Below are positions 11,900 to 23,321 of a stretch of 64,000 bases of DNA, one piece after another. Positions within the stretch are counted from its first letter, which is position 1. The number at the start of each line of letters is the position of its first letter. The notes under the pieces are model-generated. The model saw only the letters and a list, made by a program, of their open reading frames with translations, did no database searches and was not told the origin of the DNA. Source of the stretch: Pseudanabaena sp. BC1403 (lineage in GTDB: Bacteria > Cyanobacteriota > Cyanobacteriia > Pseudanabaenales > Pseudanabaenaceae). Where the stretch lies: contig NZ_PDDM01000006.1 of NCBI RefSeq assembly GCF_002914585.1, positions 1 through 64,000 of the forward strand, read 5' to 3'. Both the position numbers and the translations under genes were made by a program.

Positions 11900-11925
11900 A
11901 ATTTCTACAAGCCTAAAACTTCAAA

Positions 11926-11955
11926 TCAAAATTTATCTGCTCAAAATTTATCTGC
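11926..11955 (+). repeat. 15-nt tandem duplication between two genes
   Basis: TCAAAATTTATCTGC occurs twice in direct succession in the short gap between the kinase-like gene and the TPR gene. Confidence 0.9.
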
Positions 11956-15159: not shown

Positions 15160-15196
15160 AAATGTAAATTGCCCGCATAGCGGGCAATTTACATTT
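15160..15196. terminator. Palindrome overlapping the stop of the DUF4132-type gene
   Basis: AAATGTAAATTGCCCG-CATAG-CGGGCAATTTACATTT. It lies between the Uma2 gene and the convergent DUF4132-type gene and covers the latter's stop, so it could terminate both. Confidence 0.85.
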
Positions 15197-17708
15197 AAAG
15201 TATTTGCGGCAAAATCGTGGGATCTTTAATTTCTTTGTCCTTTGCGAGTAATAAAATCTTAGAAATTATTTCCGCAGTTTTCGGATCGTCGTCGGCAAAG
15301 GGAAGGAATAATCTACCTCGATGCTGACTGTGAACGGGAACAATACAAAGGGAGCCCCCTGGTTGGCGATGTACCACACCACTGCCAAGATGGACAGAAT
15401 AGCTGCCGAGTTCACCTTCGATCAGGGCATAGTTATTTTGTAAATTGACATTGGTCAACTTCAATAATCGATTGGTTTCCCGAATCAGTGCCGATCGCAT
15501 TTCCACCGTAGAAGCACTTGCCTCTGGATCGACCCCGCCTTGATGCGCCACGCTCACCACTAGGTCAAGATCGCGCATGACTTCGCTAAACACTATGGCA
15601 GGAACTTGATCGAGTTTGAGCGCATTGCCTCGACTGCGCTGTGAGAAGTAGACAGCATCAATAGTTAAACCTTCCACCTCGGCGGGAGTAGTCCAACCCC
15701 TATCAGTTTCGACAGAGACATAAATATCTTGGTCATAAAAAATGCGATGGATACTTGATTCGTAATCGTAACTATTCGCCACCCAGCCACGCTGTCCAAA
15801 TAAAGCCAAAGCCTGTCTGGGATTCACTTGATGTCCAGCATAGCGGCGAGAACCTTTATGTTCAGTTTCTTCCGTAGGAATAGGAAGATAGAGTTCTCGA
15901 AAAATTTGTTTGAAAGGTTGCGATCGCTCGGTATGGAAACATTCTTGTTGCCAGAGATGCCATTCACCAGTTTTTACAAGATCGGCGGGATGGGCGATTC
16001 GGACTAGATCAGCAGAATTGAGTTGGGCGTAGGTGCTGTCATATTTTCGCAATCGAGAATCTTGCGGATAACCGATCGCCGTTTCACCAACAAAAATTAG
16101 CTGCTGCAACATCGGGCGCAGAATGGGATGAATTAGTAATTGTTGTAGTTCTGCCCCCGTAAAGCGATCGCCTCGACACATGGACTGTTCGAGAGACAAC
16201 CTCATTCTTGAGGCTTGTTTGGTTAGTTTTTGCTTGCGCTCCTGAAAAGCCATAATTTCTGCATTCTTTTTGAGGGTCGCAGGAATCGTTTTTTGCGGTT
16301 TACCTTTTTTGACTACCGTTAAATTAGGAGCGCCGAGCGCGTCAAGACTGAGACTAACGGAAACATCGCCTTCTGTCACCGTGACTGAACCTTCTACTAA
16401 ATCAGCGATCGCTTTGGCTTCCATTGCCCATTCTAGGCGTTGAGGATCGGCATATCCAGCCGTCCGCGATAGGTTTTCGAGGGCAATGCGGGCGGCTAGT
16501 TTTTCACTTGCCTGCCGTTGGGAACCAAATTGTTTAGTACCCTGCATAAATTCTTGAATAACTTCGTAGCGTTGCAAAATATCGGCTTCACGATTCTCTG
16601 ACTCTAAGGGAATTAAGCCCAAGGCTCGCACAGAATCCTGATGGCGCTTTGTTTGAATGCGATCAATGGTTGCCGATTTCTCAACTTGTCCTAACATAGC
16701 ATCCGCAAACAGACGCGCCCGAGTATGCCCTTGTCCGCCCGCCGCAAATTTTGCCGCTTCGTGGATTTCTTCCCATTGAGCAGGTGTCATGGCGCGATAG
16801 GCTCGCCAAAACCAAGCTACATCGACAGCACCATCTACTAAATCTTGGCTGGTGAGGGGAGTATGTTCACCAACTTGAGCGCTCCAACCTTCTCTAATCG
16901 ATTGCTCGACTTGCCAATGGGAATCTTTGGTATGGGCATGGAACCACCATACGGCTTCGGCAAATGCGGGAGATTCCAGTAGATGCCCCACATAACGCGC
17001 CCATTGAGGAGCATAGACAGCCAGCTCGATCGCTTTGCGATTAGTAAGTCCAGAAGCGGTAAATTGCTGCGCGAATAGTTCGGGGGTATCGGTGGGCAGA
17101 GGGAAGGAAACGCGAATGAGATGGCTAAATATGGCGGCTTTACTAGCGCGATCGTAGCTCCATCCTCGGATAAACTGTTCTTTGCCTAAATTTTGCAAAA
17201 GTTTAATCACAGGGGCAATCCCTAATACAGACTGCAAGCTCAAGGCGGCTTCTGTCGCAGGAGTAGGTAAATCGCCGCGATCGCATTCTATTTCCACAAT
17301 CCGCCGCCGACAGCGATCGACTAATTCTAATAAATACTGATAATCAGTTTCGGGTAAATTAGAGAACTCATTGCGGGTGCGATCGCGCTGAGTTAATGCG
17401 CTTAATTCTCTAAAACTATAGTAGTAGTTCCCTAACCGTTCGCCAATTAAACTGTCTAAAAGATCTGCCTCAGTAACTGCATTGGCTTTGAAGGCAACAA
17501 TCATCTGGATTAAACTCGGACGACAACGCTTAATTTGTCCTTCGGACTGATTGCTAATGGGCAATATTAGATAGCTCCCCCTTTCATCCTGTAGATAGTG
17601 AGGTACGGTTCCTTTTGGCTCATCAATCCAGCGTATAAGTTGCCACAAGCGCTTAACCTGTGACTCTGTCCAGTTACTAGAATCAGAGGCATAGTTCTTA
17701 CAAGCCAT
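15195..17708 (-). CDS. DUF4132 (MolR-like) family large protein
   Basis: 837 aa, soluble. I recognise the general pattern of DUF4132-family proteins (the family of E. coli MolR). The central part includes MLQQLIFVGETAIGY, VRIAHPADL and a W-x-LWQQECF segment, followed by QPFKQIFRELYLP and SRRYAGHQVNPRQALALFGQRGW; the tail has GSLCIVPVHSQHRGRLFLPFADDD. No nuclease, ATPase or E1/E2 motif is obvious. It is the last gene of a three-gene operon. Its start lies in the same frame as the upstream HEAT-like gene, 33 nt after that gene's TGA, so it may be the second half of an originally single protein of about 1,720 aa. Biochemical role unknown. Confidence 0.75.
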   Translation of the reverse strand: MACKNYASDSSNWTESQVKRLWQLIRWIDEPKGTVPHYLQDERGSYLILPISNQSEGQIKRCRPSLIQMIVAFKANAVTEADLLDSLIGERLGNYYYSFRELSALTQRDRTRNEFSNLPETDYQYLLELVDRCRRRIVEIECDRGDLPTPATEAALSLQSVLGIAPVIKLLQNLGKEQFIRGWSYDRASKAAIFSHLIRVSFPLPTDTPELFAQQFTASGLTNRKAIELAVYAPQWARYVGHLLESPAFAEAVWWFHAHTKDSHWQVEQSIREGWSAQVGEHTPLTSQDLVDGAVDVAWFWRAYRAMTPAQWEEIHEAAKFAAGGQGHTRARLFADAMLGQVEKSATIDRIQTKRHQDSVRALGLIPLESENREADILQRYEVIQEFMQGTKQFGSQRQASEKLAARIALENLSRTAGYADPQRLEWAMEAKAIADLVEGSVTVTEGDVSVSLSLDALGAPNLTVVKKGKPQKTIPATLKKNAEIMAFQERKQKLTKQASRMRLSLEQSMCRGDRFTGAELQQLLIHPILRPMLQQLIFVGETAIGYPQDSRLRKYDSTYAQLNSADLVRIAHPADLVKTGEWHLWQQECFHTERSQPFKQIFRELYLPIPTEETEHKGSRRYAGHQVNPRQALALFGQRGWVANSYDYESSIHRIFYDQDIYVSVETDRGWTTPAEVEGLTIDAVYFSQRSRGNALKLDQVPAIVFSEVMRDLDLVVSVAHQGGVDPEASASTVEMRSALIRETNRLLKLTNVNLQNNYALIEGELGSYSVHLGSGVVHRQPGGSLCIVPVHSQHRGRLFLPFADDDPKTAEIISKILLLAKDKEIKDPTILPQIL

Positions 17709-17741
17709 GAGCGTCCAAGCATTAATTTGACTATTTTCACG

Positions 17742-20357
17742 TCAATCGTATTTGTCTGATGGAGAACTTTGGCGCAGACCTTTCAAGTTCATCCCAGAAT
17801 TAATTTGGGATAGAATTGTCGATACGTTGAGCCCCATCCCCGAAAACCCAGAAATATTGGCATTTAGGATGGCGAGCAGATCATTCTCCGAAGAGCTTTC
17901 TGTGAGATCTACTCCATCTTCAGGTTCAGTTTGAGATGGCTCTAAATCCTGTGCGATCGCCTTACGAATAGAAGCTAGGGAATATTGGGCTGCATCTAGA
18001 ATGAAATCCACGCAATTAACAGGCGGAGCAATACTTAAAAACCACTCTATTAAATTAGAAATTAATTCATGATAATTAAGTTGCGGAACATCAATCACTA
18101 AGCTCTTTTGGCATTTTTTAACCCATTTAGGAGAGTTGTCAGCAAAATAACTCATCTGAAAAAAACTATGATCTTGGAAAATTTTTTCATGGAATAGTCC
18201 AGATAAAGAAGCAGCCGCTCGTAATAATTCATAGCCATCATCATCGCGCAGTTCGGCTGAACGTCCTTCCCACCAAGTTTGCCATACTTCTGCTAAGGGT
18301 AGGTCGTCTAGGCTTTTTGCCACAGATTTTTGCGGAATTCTCGCCCTCAGCCACCTAAGATTTCCCAGAAGCTTTTCTTCGGATTCAGTTCCATCTGAAT
18401 TTAAGGAGTTAATAGGCGTATTTCGGTGTTCATGAATTAGCTCGTCGAGCGATCGCAAAATATTTTTAGCAGCTTCAGAAACTAATACAATTTCGCGATC
18501 GGGAAATTCGGGCGGAATCGCGGGAGTACGTTGACTGGGATCGAACAGCCCCAAGCCATTTTCGAGAGTAGCAGTTTGCTGCTTCTCAGGTTCAGAAAAT
18601 TTTTGTAAAAGCTCTACTTCGGCGGCGGTGAGTTTTGGTCTTTGGTGATAGGCTTCCACTTTTTGATAACAGTCATCGCTCAGCCGTTTTGCCCGAATCA
18701 TTTCATCTAATAATTCTAGCCCTGATAAGCGTTGACCCGCATCTTTACTGTTTAAAAGGCGATCGCTACTGACAAGAACATCATTATCAGATTGATTCAA
18801 GATTAAATTCAACACTCCCCGCCGCAGATCGCTACCTTTACGGGTGAGTAACCCCTCCATTTTGACAATCAATTCTGAGTTGAGAGGATATGGCTTAAGC
18901 AACTTGAAAATTTGTTCGCGCAAATGGGAAGAGCGATCGCGCATTGCCGCAAAAACTTGCTCCTGTATCTCATCATCCCAAGGTTGCTCTTTAAGCAATA
19001 ATTGGATTACTTGAACCCGCAGCCAAACGTCCATCTCCGACAGATAAGGAATCATCCTTCTAGGAGAGCGATCGCCTAAACGATTATTTAAGGTACGAAT
19101 AACCTCTGAACGGTTTAAGCTCAACAGCATCCATTCCCAAACTATGGGTTGTAGTTTCTTCTCATTGGCGGGAATTCGCTGTAAAAAAGATTCTAAACGC
19201 TCAAATAGATCGGTATTCGCTAATTTGTTTTGGATACTCCGAAAAGCCTGAGCAGCAACTCGCAAATCATCATCTTCTAAACTAGGTAATAGAGCTTCTT
19301 GGGCTAAGCCTAGATGCAATTGGTTCAACAAAAAAGCCGCCACAAAGCGAATTTCAACTTGAGAATGTTGGAGTAAGAGCGTCGCAGGGGCGATGGCAGC
19401 TTCAGCATTATCAAAGGCGATCGCCCATAGACAAAGATAAACTTCATGAGGATCGGTACTTTCTAAACCTGACTGCCTTAAATTCGCATCTTCAAGAAAT
19501 CCTAATACTTGACGCAGCGATCGCTCGGCTATTTTCTTATGTTCGACAGTCCAACCAAAGCCAAACCACTGATCTACTGCTCGAATCGTGGCACTAAAGC
19601 GGATCAAATCCTGCTCTAAAATCAACCTCACCATGCGCCGAAAAGCTTGGGGATGCGCCTGAGCGATCGCTTCCAAAATTGTCTGCCGTAGTCCTTCCTG
19701 ACGTTGGGCAGCTAGCAGCAAATTCTCAACAAATGTCCAACAATCTGGTCGATTCACAACCAATAGCGATCGCACGACATGATTGCCCATAGCCGCGATC
19801 GCATGTTCCCCCCTTGCCGAGTCTAGTAATATTTTTAATATTTCTTCCGAATGCTCATCTTCAGCTTCAATCGCCGCCGCGAACAGGATGCCAATATCGC
19901 TGTATTGATGAATATAAGCAACCCAAACTGCATACCAATCAATATCCTGTTCGTATTGCTGAACTATGTTCAGAATGCCCTGTACCCAATTAACTAAAGT
20001 GGTAGGGATAATGGAAGATGACAAGCGAAATGGCTGCCTTTGATAGCTATTCTGATAGGGTAGTCGCTGATGTAATTGCCAACCAGCTTCTACATATTTG
20101 GCAATTAATGGACATAGCGCTTCAAAGATTTGATATCTTTCCTGAGCATTAACTTCTCCCAACCGATTAGCTACTTTAGAAAGCTCATCCCAATTTCTTG
20201 TCTCCAATCCTTGGGAATCTCTTCGCAATAAAGCCCAAGCAATTTCTCTTAAACTATCTGGTAGAGATGCGATCGCCAATTGGTGGCGCTCCAACCAAGC
20301 ATGGGGGAGGGTAGCAAATTTTTGTAGCTCCTGAGAAGCCTGTTCGCGTTTTAGCAT
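17742..20357 (-). CDS. HEAT-like repeat protein of the DUF4132 operon
   Basis: 871 aa, almost wholly helical, no signal or membrane segment. Repeated amphipathic helix pairs such as VEIRFVAAFLLNQLHLGLAQ, DLRVAAQAFRSIQNKLAN, SHLREQIFKLLKPYPLN and AGQRLSGLELLDEMI indicate an alpha-solenoid. Its ATG is preceded by a perfect AGGAGGT that lies inside the last codons of the upstream gene, so translation should be coupled and strong. It ends with a TGA, 11 codons before the in-frame ATG of the DUF4132-type gene. It probably forms a complex with that protein. Specific role unknown. Confidence 0.75.
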   Translation of the reverse strand: MLKREQASQELQKFATLPHAWLERHQLAIASLPDSLREIAWALLRRDSQGLETRNWDELSKVANRLGEVNAQERYQIFEALCPLIAKYVEAGWQLHQRLPYQNSYQRQPFRLSSSIIPTTLVNWVQGILNIVQQYEQDIDWYAVWVAYIHQYSDIGILFAAAIEAEDEHSEEILKILLDSARGEHAIAAMGNHVVRSLLVVNRPDCWTFVENLLLAAQRQEGLRQTILEAIAQAHPQAFRRMVRLILEQDLIRFSATIRAVDQWFGFGWTVEHKKIAERSLRQVLGFLEDANLRQSGLESTDPHEVYLCLWAIAFDNAEAAIAPATLLLQHSQVEIRFVAAFLLNQLHLGLAQEALLPSLEDDDLRVAAQAFRSIQNKLANTDLFERLESFLQRIPANEKKLQPIVWEWMLLSLNRSEVIRTLNNRLGDRSPRRMIPYLSEMDVWLRVQVIQLLLKEQPWDDEIQEQVFAAMRDRSSHLREQIFKLLKPYPLNSELIVKMEGLLTRKGSDLRRGVLNLILNQSDNDVLVSSDRLLNSKDAGQRLSGLELLDEMIRAKRLSDDCYQKVEAYHQRPKLTAAEVELLQKFSEPEKQQTATLENGLGLFDPSQRTPAIPPEFPDREIVLVSEAAKNILRSLDELIHEHRNTPINSLNSDGTESEEKLLGNLRWLRARIPQKSVAKSLDDLPLAEVWQTWWEGRSAELRDDDGYELLRAAASLSGLFHEKIFQDHSFFQMSYFADNSPKWVKKCQKSLVIDVPQLNYHELISNLIEWFLSIAPPVNCVDFILDAAQYSLASIRKAIAQDLEPSQTEPEDGVDLTESSSENDLLAILNANISGFSGMGLNVSTILSQINSGMNLKGLRQSSPSDKYD

Positions 20358-20358
20358 A

Positions 20359-20778
20359 TTAACCTCCTACCATCGCCACGAGACGCAAAAATAATACCTT
20401 GCTTTGGGGCTGGAGCGTCACTTGTTCGTCCAACGATTCATACTGGCGATCGTCAATAAAAACATAATATAAGCCATCGCTAAAAGCCTGAATCGCAGCC
20501 TCAAAAGCGGCTTGCAAATCGACAGATTGGGGCGCAAATTCGCGATCGCCTGAAGTTATCTTGCCTTTTTCCATTCCCCAAGCGATCGCGTCCTTAGTCA
20601 AAATTTGAGGCAATTTTTGTTGTTCTTGGCGATCGCGAAAAGCAGTCACTTCTGCATCCACAATATCCAAAATTAAGTCTCGTAATGTCAAACCTTCCTG
20701 CGAGATTGATACTTGCCACGGCGCTACTGGCGATCGCTTCCGTCCTATAACCTTTGCTTCAACCTCAATGATTTGCAT
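20359..20778 (-). CDS. Small beta-grasp (ubiquitin/MoaD/ThiS-like) candidate ending in Gly-Gly
   Basis: 139 aa, first gene of the operon. The C-terminal part reads as strand YYVFIDDRQYE, then SLDEQVTLQPQSKVLFLRL and finally VAMVGG at the very C-terminus. This resembles the end of sulfur-carrier and ubiquitin-like proteins, where a final Gly-Gly is adenylated or conjugated. The N-terminus (IIEVEAKVIGRK...PWQVSI, then the helix LTLRDLILDIVDAEV) would supply the first beta hairpin and helix; about 50 residues in the middle look like an insertion. The fold assignment is inference. The Gly-Gly codons also form the ribosome binding site of the next gene, a non-protein reason for their presence. The DUF4132 family is known from MolR, linked historically to molybdate. 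Confidence 0.6.
   Translation of the reverse strand: MQIIEVEAKVIGRKRSPVAPWQVSISQEGLTLRDLILDIVDAEVTAFRDRQEQQKLPQILTKDAIAWGMEKGKITSGDREFAPQSVDLQAAFEAAIQAFSDGLYYVFIDDRQYESLDEQVTLQPQSKVLFLRLVAMVGG
20362..20368 (-). promoter_or_regulatory. Shine-Dalgarno AGGAGGT inside the Gly-Gly codons
   Basis: On the minus strand GTA-GGA-GGT-TAA-T-ATG encodes Val-Gly-Gly-stop and then starts the HEAT-like gene. AGGAGGT lies four bases before the ATG, an ideal spacing, so one stretch serves as coding end and ribosome binding site. Confidence 0.85.
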
Positions 20779-20928: not shown

Positions 20929-20948
20929 TAGATGTAGCGACACATCTA
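20929..20948 (-). terminator. Small hairpin at the pcrA stop codon
   Basis: TAGATGT-AGCGAC-ACATCTA overlaps the last codon of pcrA. It is short and may be a weak terminator before the three-gene operon, whose promoter should lie in 20779-20928. Confidence 0.45.
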
Positions 20949-23321
20949 TATTTTCTGAATTGGTGCAAGCTTGGGATCGATAATTTTTTTGCCTTGCCCT
21001 GCGAAAGCAACAGCTAAATACATCTTGTCACCAGTGCCAAGCAAATTAGCAACTTGACCTTCACCAAACTTGTCATGCATCACGCGATCGCCTACTTGCC
21101 AATCAATACGAGGCTTGGGCTTAACAGCATTTACCTTGACGGGAGGCACAGACCTGAGCGAACCTTTAACACTAGTGGCTTCAGCCCGTTGACTTGCCTT
21201 ACTGATAAACTTATCAATGCCATGTCCAGTCAGATACTCTTTGGGAAGCTCTGCAAGGAATTGAGAGGGAATAGCATATTCGCGATTGCCATAGAGACGA
21301 CGAGCCTGAGCATGGCTAAGAAATAACTTCTCTTGGGCGCGAGTAATGCCCACATACATGAGACGGCGCTCCTCTTCTAAAGCCATCGGATCGTTAATGG
21401 AACGGAAGCTAGGAAATAAGCCTTGCTCTAGACCAACGAGGAAGACCACAGGGAATTCTAAACCTTTAGCTGCATGAAGAGTCATCAAGGTGACCTTATC
21501 GGCATTCTCGCTGCTGTCATCAAGACTAGAAGCAAGAGCCGCATTAGCTAAGAAAGCATCAAGGGAAGCATCTTCATTCTCTTCGGCAAACTGTAGCGCT
21601 GCGTTATACAGTTCTTGCAAGTTAGAAATGCGATCGTTGGCTTCATCATTACTTTGAGCTTTCAGTTCATCGACATAGCCAGATTCGGCGAGAATGCCCT
21701 GAATGATATCCGCTGCTGGCGTAACTGCTACTTTCGCTTGCCATTTTTGCATCAATTCCACAAAGGAGAGCACACCCCTAGCCGATCGCCCAGCCAGAGT
21801 CTTGACAGTGGTTTCATCGCTGATGATGTCCCAGATGGGGACGCTGAGTTCTTGGGCGGCTTGTTGGAGCTTATCGAGAGTTGCCTTACCGATACTGCGT
21901 TTAGGAACATTGATGATTCGCATCAAGCCGAGGGTATCGGAGGGATTGGACAGCAGGCGTAAATAGGAAAGAACATCTTTAATTTCTTTGCGATCGTAAA
22001 ATCGTAAGCCACCCACAACTTTGTAAGGAATATTCCAACGCACCAGCATTTCTTCAAAGGGGCGAGACTGGGCGTTAGTGCGATAGAGAATTGCAAAATG
22101 TCCAAGATTGGCGCTAGGGGTTTTGGTCTTAACGCGGCGAATCTGCTCGATCACAAACTGTGCTTCATCAACTTCATCATCGGCACGGAATAGCTCGATC
22201 AAGTCTCCGTCGGGTCTAGTTGCTTTCAGGACTTTATCGATACGTTGTGTGTTATGGTCGATCAGTTGATTGGCAATTTCGAGGATATTAGCAACGGAAC
22301 GATAGTTCTCTTCTAGCTTGATCATTGTGCCTGTATGGGCATCGGGCAAGCGATCGCCAAAAGCTTCTTGAAATTCCATCAAGATCGTAAAGTCAGCAGA
22401 GCGGAAACTATAAATCGATTGGTCGGCATCACCGACAACAAAAATGGAACGATTTTCCCAAGTCGGCTTTTTGTCATTAGTGGAGAGTAGCTGAATCAAA
22501 TCATATTGAGTACGGTTTGTGTCTTGATACTCATCAACAAGAATATGCTTAAAGCGATTGTGCCAGTAGTTAAGAACTTCAGGATTTTGTTTGAATAGGC
22601 GCACTGGCAAAAAGATTAAATCATCAAAGTCGAGAGCATTATTGGTGGCTAGCTGATTTTGGTAAAGACTATAAACCTGTGCGATCGCACGCTTACGGAA
22701 AGACGAATCATCACTCTGAGCCTCATATTCTTCGGGAGTCCAGCCTTTATTTTTGGCATTGCCGATCGCAAAACGTACGGATTTTGGCTCAAATTTCTTT
22801 TCATCAAGGTTTAGCTGATTGATGACAATATCTTTAACTAAAGATTGCGCGTCAGAATCATCAAAAACCGAGAAGTTTTTTGCCCAGCTGCGACCATTAC
22901 TATCTTTGTATTTATCAATATCAAGGCGCAAAATTCGACAGCACATACTATGGAAAGTTCCCATCCATAGTCCATCTTGCGCATAACTATTTATATATTG
23001 CTTATAAACTTTTTTGCGAAGTTTGTCCTGTTCCCAGTCAGGAATTTCGCTTAAAGTTTTACCTAATTCCCTTTGAACGACCTCTTGAGTTAACAAGGAT
23101 TGAATTCGTTCATTCATTTCCTTGCCAGCCTTATTTGTAAACGTCACGGCTAAGATTTGCTCAGGTGCAACACCGTGATTGAGCATTAAGTTGGCAATAC
23201 GATAGGTCAATGTCCTTGTTTTCCCTGAGCCTGCCCCTGCGACCACGAGCATTGGCCCATGCAAATGGCTTGCGGCTTTTTGTTGGGCTGGGTTGAGATG
23301 AAGCAAAAAATTGGAACTCAT
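20946..23321 (-). CDS. pcrA: ATP-dependent DNA helicase, UvrD/PcrA type
   Basis: A superfamily 1 3'-5' helicase in repair and replication restart, 791 aa. It carries the Q motif (LNPAQQKAA), Walker A GAGSGKT at residues 29-35, motif Ia (AVTFTNKAGKEM), motif II LVDEYQDTN, motif III (VGDADQSIYSFR), motif IV region (LEENYRS), motif V (VTLMTLHAAKGLEFPVVF) and motif VI (RRLMYVGITRAQEKL). The C-terminal tail has a Tudor-like end, WQVGDRVMHDKFGEGQV. Its length is slightly above the Bacillus protein. The neighbouring kinase gene diverges from it. Confidence 0.96.
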   Translation of the reverse strand: MSSNFLLHLNPAQQKAASHLHGPMLVVAGAGSGKTRTLTYRIANLMLNHGVAPEQILAVTFTNKAGKEMNERIQSLLTQEVVQRELGKTLSEIPDWEQDKLRKKVYKQYINSYAQDGLWMGTFHSMCCRILRLDIDKYKDSNGRSWAKNFSVFDDSDAQSLVKDIVINQLNLDEKKFEPKSVRFAIGNAKNKGWTPEEYEAQSDDSSFRKRAIAQVYSLYQNQLATNNALDFDDLIFLPVRLFKQNPEVLNYWHNRFKHILVDEYQDTNRTQYDLIQLLSTNDKKPTWENRSIFVVGDADQSIYSFRSADFTILMEFQEAFGDRLPDAHTGTMIKLEENYRSVANILEIANQLIDHNTQRIDKVLKATRPDGDLIELFRADDEVDEAQFVIEQIRRVKTKTPSANLGHFAILYRTNAQSRPFEEMLVRWNIPYKVVGGLRFYDRKEIKDVLSYLRLLSNPSDTLGLMRIINVPKRSIGKATLDKLQQAAQELSVPIWDIISDETTVKTLAGRSARGVLSFVELMQKWQAKVAVTPAADIIQGILAESGYVDELKAQSNDEANDRISNLQELYNAALQFAEENEDASLDAFLANAALASSLDDSSENADKVTLMTLHAAKGLEFPVVFLVGLEQGLFPSFRSINDPMALEEERRLMYVGITRAQEKLFLSHAQARRLYGNREYAIPSQFLAELPKEYLTGHGIDKFISKASQRAEATSVKGSLRSVPPVKVNAVKPKPRIDWQVGDRVMHDKFGEGQVANLLGTGDKMYLAVAFAGQGKKIIDPKLAPIQKI

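Follow-up and report, generated by a model that had tools for sequence, protein, structure and literature searches.

A predicted ubiquitin-like beta-grasp protein paired with a DUF5724-DUF4132-DUF7737 giant in Pseudanabaena sp. BC1403 and across many bacterial phyla

Introduction

UFM1 and ATG8 are ubiquitin-like modifiers that act through a single glycine, and the tail of MoaD enters its partner MoaE. The small protein described here resembles MoaD, ThiS, Urm1 and SAMP1 in its predicted beta-grasp fold and, in one of its two clades (clade I), in a Gly-Gly end. It differs from these four in having additional helices between its second and third strands, and from MoaD, ThiS and Urm1 in that its members (69 scanned) matched none of their family profiles, no recurrent E1 gene stood beside it and Gly-Gly was missing in about half of the sampled family. 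Operons that encode a small beta-grasp protein with a C-terminal Gly are also known from the prokaryotic ubiquitin-like E1/E2/JAB clusters (Iyer et al., 2006; PMC1779556). Unlike those clusters, as set out in the available text of that paper, the present loci had no recurrent E1 or JAB gene, and their constant partner was a DUF5724-DUF4132-DUF7737 giant; in the same text, "MolR" and "HEAT" did not occur in the main body and "DUF4132" did not occur at all.

For the giant, a described relative is Escherichia coli YehI (MolR), which shared DUF4132 homology (38 bits against the giant profile), with IAHP and PF.Q..R stretches in common, although the match ended before the DUF7737 part. A ubiquitin-like gene was not found in the 20-kb E. 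coli yeh region.

Results

Locus layout and the split giant gene

The window was the whole stretch of 64,000 nucleotides analyzed from Pseudanabaena sp. BC1403 (contig NZ_PDDM01000006.1). The features of the locus were as follows:

20359..20778, minus strand: small-protein ORF, 139 aa, from the ORF list; ubiquitin-like beta-grasp by its AlphaFold2 model, homologue of DRA0165
20362..20382, minus strand: codons of the last seven residues, a tail past the final strand that ends in Gly-Gly (from the ORF, model and conservation)
17742..20357, minus strand: N-terminal half of the giant, 871 aa, DUF5724 profile positions 39-796
17742..17744, minus strand: in-frame stop splitting the giant in Pseudanabaena sp. 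BC1403, the frame resuming beyond it
15195..17708, minus strand: C-terminal half of the giant, 837 aa, with DUF5724 profile positions 834-1214, DUF4132 and DUF7737
15783..16304, minus strand: DUF4132 domain (Pfam match)
15201..15506, minus strand: DUF7737 domain (Pfam match)

A single base lay between the stop codon of the small gene and the start of the 871-aa ORF, and the 837-aa ORF followed after 33 bases in the same reading frame. A preliminary description of this DNA had reported two large proteins; judging from the sequence, the two ORFs are instead two halves of one DUF5724-DUF4132-DUF7737 protein, cut by the in-frame stop. The giant was an open frame of ~1,688 aa in two relatives of the same genus (G299 and G306), and a single unbroken ORF was likewise present in G143 and most of the fetched loci. 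Against two relatives, dN/dS was 0.21-0.24 for the N-terminal half and 0.125-0.128 for the C-terminal half, values that span the time before the split as well and are no proof that the halves still work. The small protein, which contains YYVFIDDRQYESLDEQVTLQ, ended in FLRLVAMVGG, in agreement with the first observation of a Gly-Gly terminus.

Pairing of the two genes and their spread

The genome scan was made with the giant C-terminus (A3) as query and the best 80 of 472 confirmed relatives were fetched, so that the sample was biased to close kin, with Flavobacterium and Paenibacillaceae abundant. The small gene was present at 68 of these 80 loci, all fetched via the giant C-terminus alone. 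Among the matches listed, it adjoined the giant at 66 of the 68 loci with a giant ORF > 4.5 kb, once downstream of it (L042), while at the other two the giant ran off the contig end. The proposed linkage to a DUF4132 gene was thus borne out. Many loci had an intergenic gap of few bases, and the small gene was absent beside the broken giants of L041 and L051. By blastp it was the only pervasive neighbor, found at 59 of 89 giant loci; the next neighbor clusters occurred at 15 and 13 of the 89, in scattered positions. Within Cyanobacteriota, the small gene was detected in five of 292 genomes, each of which also had DUF4132 and DUF7737. Small gene and giant form a real two-gene unit, and this pair spans many bacterial phyla.

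The wider proposition that every DUF7737 protein has a small gene was rejected, as divergent DUF4132-DUF7737 giants with no small gene nearby were found in G044 and in Nonomuraea (L113, the one place examined out of three). Viral contigs held no relative of the small protein or the giant at the sensitivity used, and phage records held none of the giant C-terminus.

Fold of the small protein

The AlphaFold2 model of the small protein had a mean pLDDT of 83.2. Its top PDB matches in Foldseek were Urm1-type 1wgk, SAMP1 and MOCS2A, with probabilities of 0.97-0.99 and weak E-values (0.014-0.1). In VIA, the model gave Z 8.6 against 5mpo chain B (80 residues, 3.1 Å), Z 7.7 against chain G of the Ahp1-Urm1 complex, and Z 7.2 against ubiquitin with Uba1, an alignment that reached model residue 137; just 6 of 999 chains had Z of at least 8. 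The model thereby agrees with the suggested beta-grasp candidate, and the protein is predicted to be of the ubiquitin/MoaD/Urm1 type. Helices were modeled at residues 32-55 and, as the extra elements between strands 2 and 3, at 62-71 (low confidence) and 88-100.

Scans of the small protein against Pfam, NCBIfam and PADLOC gave nothing above cut-off, and PHROGs gave no match. When 69 members were scanned at E up to 0.1, they hit 19 Pfam families in all, with ThiS, MoaD and Urm1 not among them; two of the 69 weakly matched the ubiquitin-like autophagy protein APG12 (best E 0.046). A sequence-profile search of the PDB returned non-significant matches alone, including an Urm1 at E 1.6.

C-terminal tail and the two clades

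Gly-Gly was the exact C-terminus in 38 of 79 small-protein homologues, and the other 41 ended differently; the expectation that all homologues would end in Gly-Gly therefore failed, 40 of the 41 lying on one side of a deep split. The tree, a quick search with midpoint rooting only, was built from 73 of the 79 small-gene loci; it excluded L016 and L017, whose giants are broken, as well as L009, L012, L013 and L014, whose giants are outlying or lie on another contig. Clade I, which holds the Pseudanabaena sp. BC1403 protein, had the Gly-Gly end in 32 of 33 members, as did the four outlying homologues. All 40 members of clade II had another ending, which was Trp in 35. The tail was x-G-G in one clade and mostly G-x-x-W in the other, with the first Gly conserved in 78 of 79 proteins (Cys replaces it in L068) and variable residues after it. 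Given the exact terminal position in 38 of 79 homologues and in 32 of 33 of clade I, the Gly-Gly end is not a chance feature.

Domains and conservation of the giant

In the 837-aa half, DUF4132 scored 158 bits against a Pfam cut-off of 27, and the AlphaFold2 model had a mean pLDDT of 86.4. Residues 1 to ~430 were modeled as an alpha-solenoid, with weak solenoid matches in Foldseek and VIA, and structure search gave a YugN-like match at 617-727 (Z 8.2-8.4, ~100 residues). No enzyme fold is claimed from these searches, and the region outside these matches was covered only sparsely. Across 75 giants, 128 columns were at least 95% identical. Their density was highest toward the DUF4132-DUF7737 end, where the two domains and the intervening stretch held most near-invariant residues of the giant. 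A conserved cysteine was not found in the 75 giants, no cysteine column exceeding 63%.

The Deinococcus counterpart and its regulation

The homologous pair of Deinococcus radiodurans is drA0165-drA0166, published as a DNA-damage operon under DdrO/IrrE control. DRA0165 was 41% identical to the 139-aa protein over 96% of its length and was followed by the giant, there a single gene. An operator at 11913-11932 of L006 was identical to the DRA0165 site given in PMC8533742, and the three further Deinococcus loci had it upstream as well, L010 in diverged form; the control gave an exact match in 4 of 400 random windows of the same four loci, possibly the same sites. In the available text of PMC9650054, DRA0165 (SEP068184) was described as Deinococcus-only and without a DdrO operator. 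The sequences contradict both statements. An H2O2 phenotype has been published for the DRA0165 deletion.

Upstream sites were also sought elsewhere. The LexA motif GAAC-N4-GTTC preceded the small gene in 2 of 79 cases versus 5 of 474 random windows, which is no signal. Cyanobacterial LexA-like sites with at most one mismatch to the consensus were seen at 4 of 10 loci versus 58 of 1000 random windows; two of the four loci were close relatives and the Pseudanabaena sp. BC1403 window had none, so that these possible sites are a weak lead.

Discussion

We consider it somewhat probable (about 0.55) that the locus encodes a two-part stress-response complex, in which an obligate ubiquitin-like subunit docks its tail on the giant's conserved polar end. 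By sequence and prediction, the partner of the beta-grasp protein consists of a HEAT/ARM-like alpha-solenoid with DUF4132 and DUF7737 behind it, and the strict gene pairing suggests that the two bind physically. Conservation points to a pocket at the DUF4132-DUF7737 end, lined by near-invariant polar residues, into which the flexible tail may dock. The docked tail would switch or complete the activity of the giant, much as the MoaD tail enters MoaE, although not every lineage would require the Gly-Gly carboxylate. The Deinococcus pair is reported to be produced on demand when DNA is damaged, through DdrO and IrrE, and the operator was seen here. Because it is induced by DNA damage there, the pair looks like a widespread stress system, and a damage- or stress-response complex is its most likely role. 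Of the two options first put forward, a large complex with a beta-grasp subunit fits best. Against docking, the conservation of Gly-Gly in clade I and the outlying homologues exceeds what a mere docking tail needs, and clade I may still use its Gly-Gly covalently. Also against this reading are the giants of G044, L113, L041 and L051, which have no small gene beside them, the weak Foldseek E-values, and the 157 proteins that co-purify with DRA0165 according to the available text of PMC9650054, among which DRA0166 was not named.

The other early option, a new conjugation or sulfur-transfer system, is rather doubtful. The small protein would then be a genuine modifier or sulfur carrier, as Urm1, SAMP and MoaD are, its Gly-Gly carboxylate adenylated by the housekeeping MoeB-type E1, with the giant as acceptor, ligase-like adaptor or sulfur-using enzyme. 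The nearest folds and the Gly-Gly end of clade I and the four outliers speak for it, as does a strong ThiF match (E ~1e-80), which we take to be MoeB-type, elsewhere in the genome of all four carriers of the genus. Yet the whole of clade II departs from Gly-Gly and the giants have no conserved cysteine. Of the 2,316 ORFs lying up to 8 kb from the 89 giants, an E1-like profile matched one (L091 1591-3195, E 1.7e-6) and a JAB query none, although with four MoeB-like sequences as profile and a single JAB sequence as query, distant forms could be missed. Inspection by eye of the recurrent neighbor clusters at the 89 loci revealed no E1-, E2- or JAB-type cluster and no protease gene; the surrounding ORFs listed for the window agree with the earlier remark that no E1-like or JAB gene lies beside the locus. 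Within the genus, ThiF counts overlapped between the four carriers (5, 3, 3 and 2) and non-carriers (2 to 7), and neither ThiF nor JAB counts, which are not orthology assignments, separated the two groups; one carrier (G319) had a JAB match below cut-off only. Moreover, C-terminal tags would block the carboxylate, yet according to the available text of PMC9650054 co-immunoprecipitation with such tags shared 157 proteins with the N-tagged baits.

It is unlikely that the DUF4132-DUF7737 giant itself activates or transfers the ubiquitin-like protein. Such a system would work with no catalytic cysteine and no E1, E2 or JAB of its own, in many phyla, damage-induced in Deinococcus, and with both a Gly-Gly and a single-Gly clade.

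That the small protein acts as a single-glycine modifier, in the manner of UFM1 or ATG8, is quite improbable. A protease would cut after the near-invariant first Gly, so that both tail types would yield the same kind of mature end, in keeping with the variable residues that follow and with the weak APG12 matches; against this stand the lack of a protease gene among the recurrent neighbors, the giant without a conserved cysteine, and the Cys of L068. Strict adjacency with few bases between genes might suggest a toxin-antitoxin-like pair in which a harmful giant is kept in check by the small protein, but this is very improbable, as the DR_A0165 deletion was reported in the available text of PMC9650054 to be viable, with growth at least at wild-type level and DR_A0166 expression unchanged, and the sole PADLOC match, which lay in the 837-aa half, was weak and HicA-like (E 0.023).

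The pairing links a ubiquitin-like family that has no Pfam model with a single, constant giant partner in many bacterial phyla. It also offers one testable hypothesis for three DUF families and for an operon that has been an orphan within the Deinococcus damage regulon. If the Gly-Gly of clade I is used covalently, the pair would represent a ubiquitin-like system that departs from the E1/E2/JAB operon pattern; otherwise it is a clear example of a ubiquitin-like protein retained as a subunit, an entire clade of which lacks the Gly-Gly end.

A gene pair whose second member is interrupted by a stop

The locus contained three minus-strand ORFs of 139, 871 and 837 aa, placed exactly as in the preliminary description.

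Features of the locus in Pseudanabaena sp. BC1403 (NZ_PDDM01000006.1)
20946-23321, minus strand, UvrD/PcrA-like helicase ORF (named by eye)
20359-20778, minus strand, small protein ORF, 139 aa (ORF listing)
17742-20357, minus strand, first half of the giant, 871 aa (ORF listing); Pfam DUF5724 positions 39-796
17742-17744, in-frame stop splitting the giant gene (comparison with same-genus relatives)
15195-17708, minus strand, second half of the giant, 837 aa (ORF listing); DUF5724 834-1214, DUF4132, DUF7737

The Pfam DUF5724 profile ran across both large ORFs (39-796 in the first, 834-1214 in the second), followed in the 837-aa ORF by DUF4132 and then DUF7737. Both ORFs shared one frame with an in-frame stop between them. 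In two genomes of the same genus (G299 and G306) the giant read through as a single ~1,688-aa frame, while in a third (G319) it was truncated by the contig end; none of the three had a stop at the position corresponding to 17742-17744. The two large ORFs are thus halves of one protein. The supposed three-gene operon therefore consists of two genes, the second of which is split by the stop. The small gene was present as a single copy in the genome, and its product had no above-cut-off match in Pfam, NCBIfam or PADLOC. Immediately upstream of the small gene, on the same strand, is the helicase ORF; a TrmD-like ORF (by eye) takes its place in G299, G306 and G319, so this link is not conserved.

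Pairing and distribution of the small gene and the giant

Plasmid records gave the first examples of the small protein with giants, in Deinococcus (4), Bacteroides (1) and Novosphingobium (1); a giant adjoined its gene in 6/6. One genome for each of 84,980 species was then scanned, using the last 140 residues of the giant as query so that selection for the small gene was avoided. Of 472 confirmed relatives the 80 best were kept. Many are metagenome bins, and the record titles include Cyanobacteria, Chloroflexi, Planctomycetes, Actinobacteria, Paenibacillus, Brevibacillus, Flavobacterium and other Bacteroidota, Acidobacteria, Verrucomicrobia, Armatimonadota and others. A profile search detected the small gene in 68 of these 80 loci. 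Where the giant ORF exceeded 4.5 kb (68 loci), the small gene was present in 66, and in both exceptions (L073 and L087) the giant begins at a contig edge. Two loci without the small gene (L041 and L051) had broken giants and sufficient upstream DNA, and in the eight remaining the giants were cut; in one locus (L042) the small gene was downstream of the giant. When ORFs of at least 90 aa within 8 kb of 89 giants were clustered by blastp, the small gene was the only pervasive neighbour (59/89 loci), the next two clusters being limited to 15 and 13 loci and having no fixed position. In Bacteroides finegoldii (L008, 10233-17990), a rhomboid protease gene precedes the pair and a GAF gene follows it.

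Within the Cyanobacteria, the small gene was detected in 5 of 292 genomes, DUF7737 in 6 and DUF4132 in 8, with both domains present in 5/5 small-gene carriers. In one carrier (G080) they were on another contig: the giant is at the start of contig C19 and the small gene on C12, where transposase-like ORFs (by eye) follow it up to the contig end (L014, 10133-12618), an arrangement that would fit insertion of a mobile element between the two. The pair is an accessory unit within the genus, since the giant occurred in 4 of its 26 genomes. The small gene was absent beside the divergent DUF4132-DUF7737 proteins of genome G044 and of Nonomuraea (one place examined of three). Nor did it accompany the DUF4132 proteins of genomes G004 and G018 or E. 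coli YehI, for which no DUF7737 part was detected.

Predicted structure

The AlphaFold2 model of the small protein, built from 69 aligned homologues (mean pLDDT 83.2, pTM 0.73; residues ~51-80 less certain), had the order strand-strand-helix-helix-helix-strand-strand-strand-tail. The best PDB matches in Foldseek were chains of 1wgk, which we take to be Urm1 (listed as a hypothetical protein), SAMP1 and human MOCS2A (probability 0.97-0.99, E 0.014-0.1). The 50 rows listed by a second structure search were mostly ubiquitin, ISG15, NEDD8, Urm1, SAMP1 or MoaD-type chains. Z was 9.1 and 8.9 against a U11 particle chain, presumably a ubiquitin-like protein, 8.6 against molybdopterin synthase (5mpo), 7.7 against the Ahp1-Urm1 complex and 7.2 against ubiquitin with Uba1, the alignment reaching residue 137 of 139; values <8 can reflect a common arrangement, and Z ≥8 was reached by 6/999 chains. 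These matches agree with the fold proposed earlier, and the small protein is predicted to be a beta-grasp ubiquitin-like protein. For the D. radiodurans protein, Zhou et al. had arrived independently at 5MPO, 3PO0, 1WGK and 1VJK (PMC9650054).

All 69 family members stayed below the Pfam cut-offs of ubiquitin-like families; the closest was APG12, matched weakly by 2/69. In the literature searched, whose scope left out most subscription journals, DUF4132 occurred in three papers, DUF5724 and DUF7737 were not mentioned and no link of DUF4132 with bacterial ubiquitin-like proteins was found. Of 28 papers mentioning DRA0165 or DRA0166 terms, at least two concern Deinococcus.

The C-terminal tail

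Gly-Gly terminated 38 of 79 small-protein homologues; the other 41 ended in Trp (35) or differently (6), and the first Gly of the tail was kept in 78/79. A midpoint-rooted tree of the last 480 residues of the giants (73 rows) had one deep split with full support. Clade I (33 rows), which includes the giant studied here, comprised Cyanobacteria, Deinococcus, Planctomycetota, Actinomycetota, Chloroflexota and allies, with Gly-Gly in 32/33 and -GA in one. Clade II (40 rows) comprised Bacteroidota, Bacillota and four rows that belong elsewhere or carry no group name, with Gly-Gly in 0/40 and a Trp end in 35/40 (e.g., -GSYW, -GSLW), the others being -GGYF, -GGIF, -GNY, -GR and -GLL. The expectation that all homologues end in Gly-Gly therefore held nearly throughout clade I and failed overall, and this contrast indicates that Gly-Gly is constrained in clade I and dispensable for the family as a whole. 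Two changes accounted for all tail states on the tree. Gly-Gly likewise terminates the outlying relatives in Novosphingobium and genomes G014, G080 and G005, which suggests that it may be the older state.

Conjugation genes and conserved residues of the giant

Contrary to what a conjugation system would lead one to expect, E1-like profiles matched 1 of 2,316 ORFs near the 89 giants and the JAB query 0, with no recurrent E1 or JAB cluster. No conjugation cascade was seen. Across the 38 genomes of the bacterial family that includes Pseudanabaena, ThiF matches occurred in 38/38 and their counts did not follow the pair (5, 3, 3 and 2 in carriers, 2-7 in genus non-carriers); JAB matches occurred in 30/38, above cut-off in 19, and one carrier had a match below cut-off only. 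The single E1-like ORF (L091, 1591-3195, Flavobacterium oncorhynchi; E 1.7e-6, a weak match), with a start E2-like by eye, lies ~1.5 kb upstream of the pair in 1/89 loci. Elsewhere in the Pseudanabaena sp. BC1403 genome, away from the pair, JAB and ThiF matches adjoin (contig C45, 11442-12226), possibly a separate ubiquitin-like system; similar pairs occur in part of the genus, among carriers as well as non-carriers.

In the C-terminal half of the giant, the model (pLDDT 86.4) was an alpha-solenoid to residue ~430 followed by an alpha/beta end, for which searches of the predicted model gave no clear structural match. An alignment of 75 giants had 128 columns with ≥95% identity. Their density is highest near DUF4132-DUF7737, and many of them are H, R, D, E, Q or K; no cysteine column exceeded 63%. 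These polar columns and the lack of a conserved cysteine speak against a thioester enzyme and favour an end that binds a ligand or substrate. We infer that the small protein's tail probably sits at this DUF4132-DUF7737 end.

Regulation and phenotype

In D. radiodurans (L006, pair DRA0165-DRA0166), GGTTATGCTATTTACATAAC lies at 11913-11932, 82 bases upstream of the small gene's start. The DdrO regulon map lists the identical site for DRA0165, at -83, and DRA0166 was up after mitomycin C in an IrrE-dependent manner (PMC8533742). Three of four Deinococcus loci matched a relaxed pattern of the site exactly, and the remaining one had a diverged copy. Zhou et al. describe the small gene as lacking a DdrO site and the protein as restricted to Deinococcus (PMC9650054); both statements conflict with the present sequences, the former because of the operator at 11913-11932, also listed in PMC8533742. 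In cyanobacterial loci L018, L019, L020 and L021, candidate LexA-like sites with at most one mismatch occur upstream of the small gene (4/10 loci vs. ~6% of random windows; two loci closely related).

Deletion of DR_A0165 raised H2O2 survival and over-expression lowered it, with DRA0166 expression unchanged in the deletion (PMC9650054). That the deletion is viable speaks against a toxin-antitoxin pair. N- and C-tagged baits had 157 partners in common, and the small protein binds thioredoxin Trx1, encoded by the gene upstream (PMC9650054). The small protein thus stands as a predicted ubiquitin-like protein of the beta-grasp type, constantly paired with a giant, and is at most a candidate modifier.
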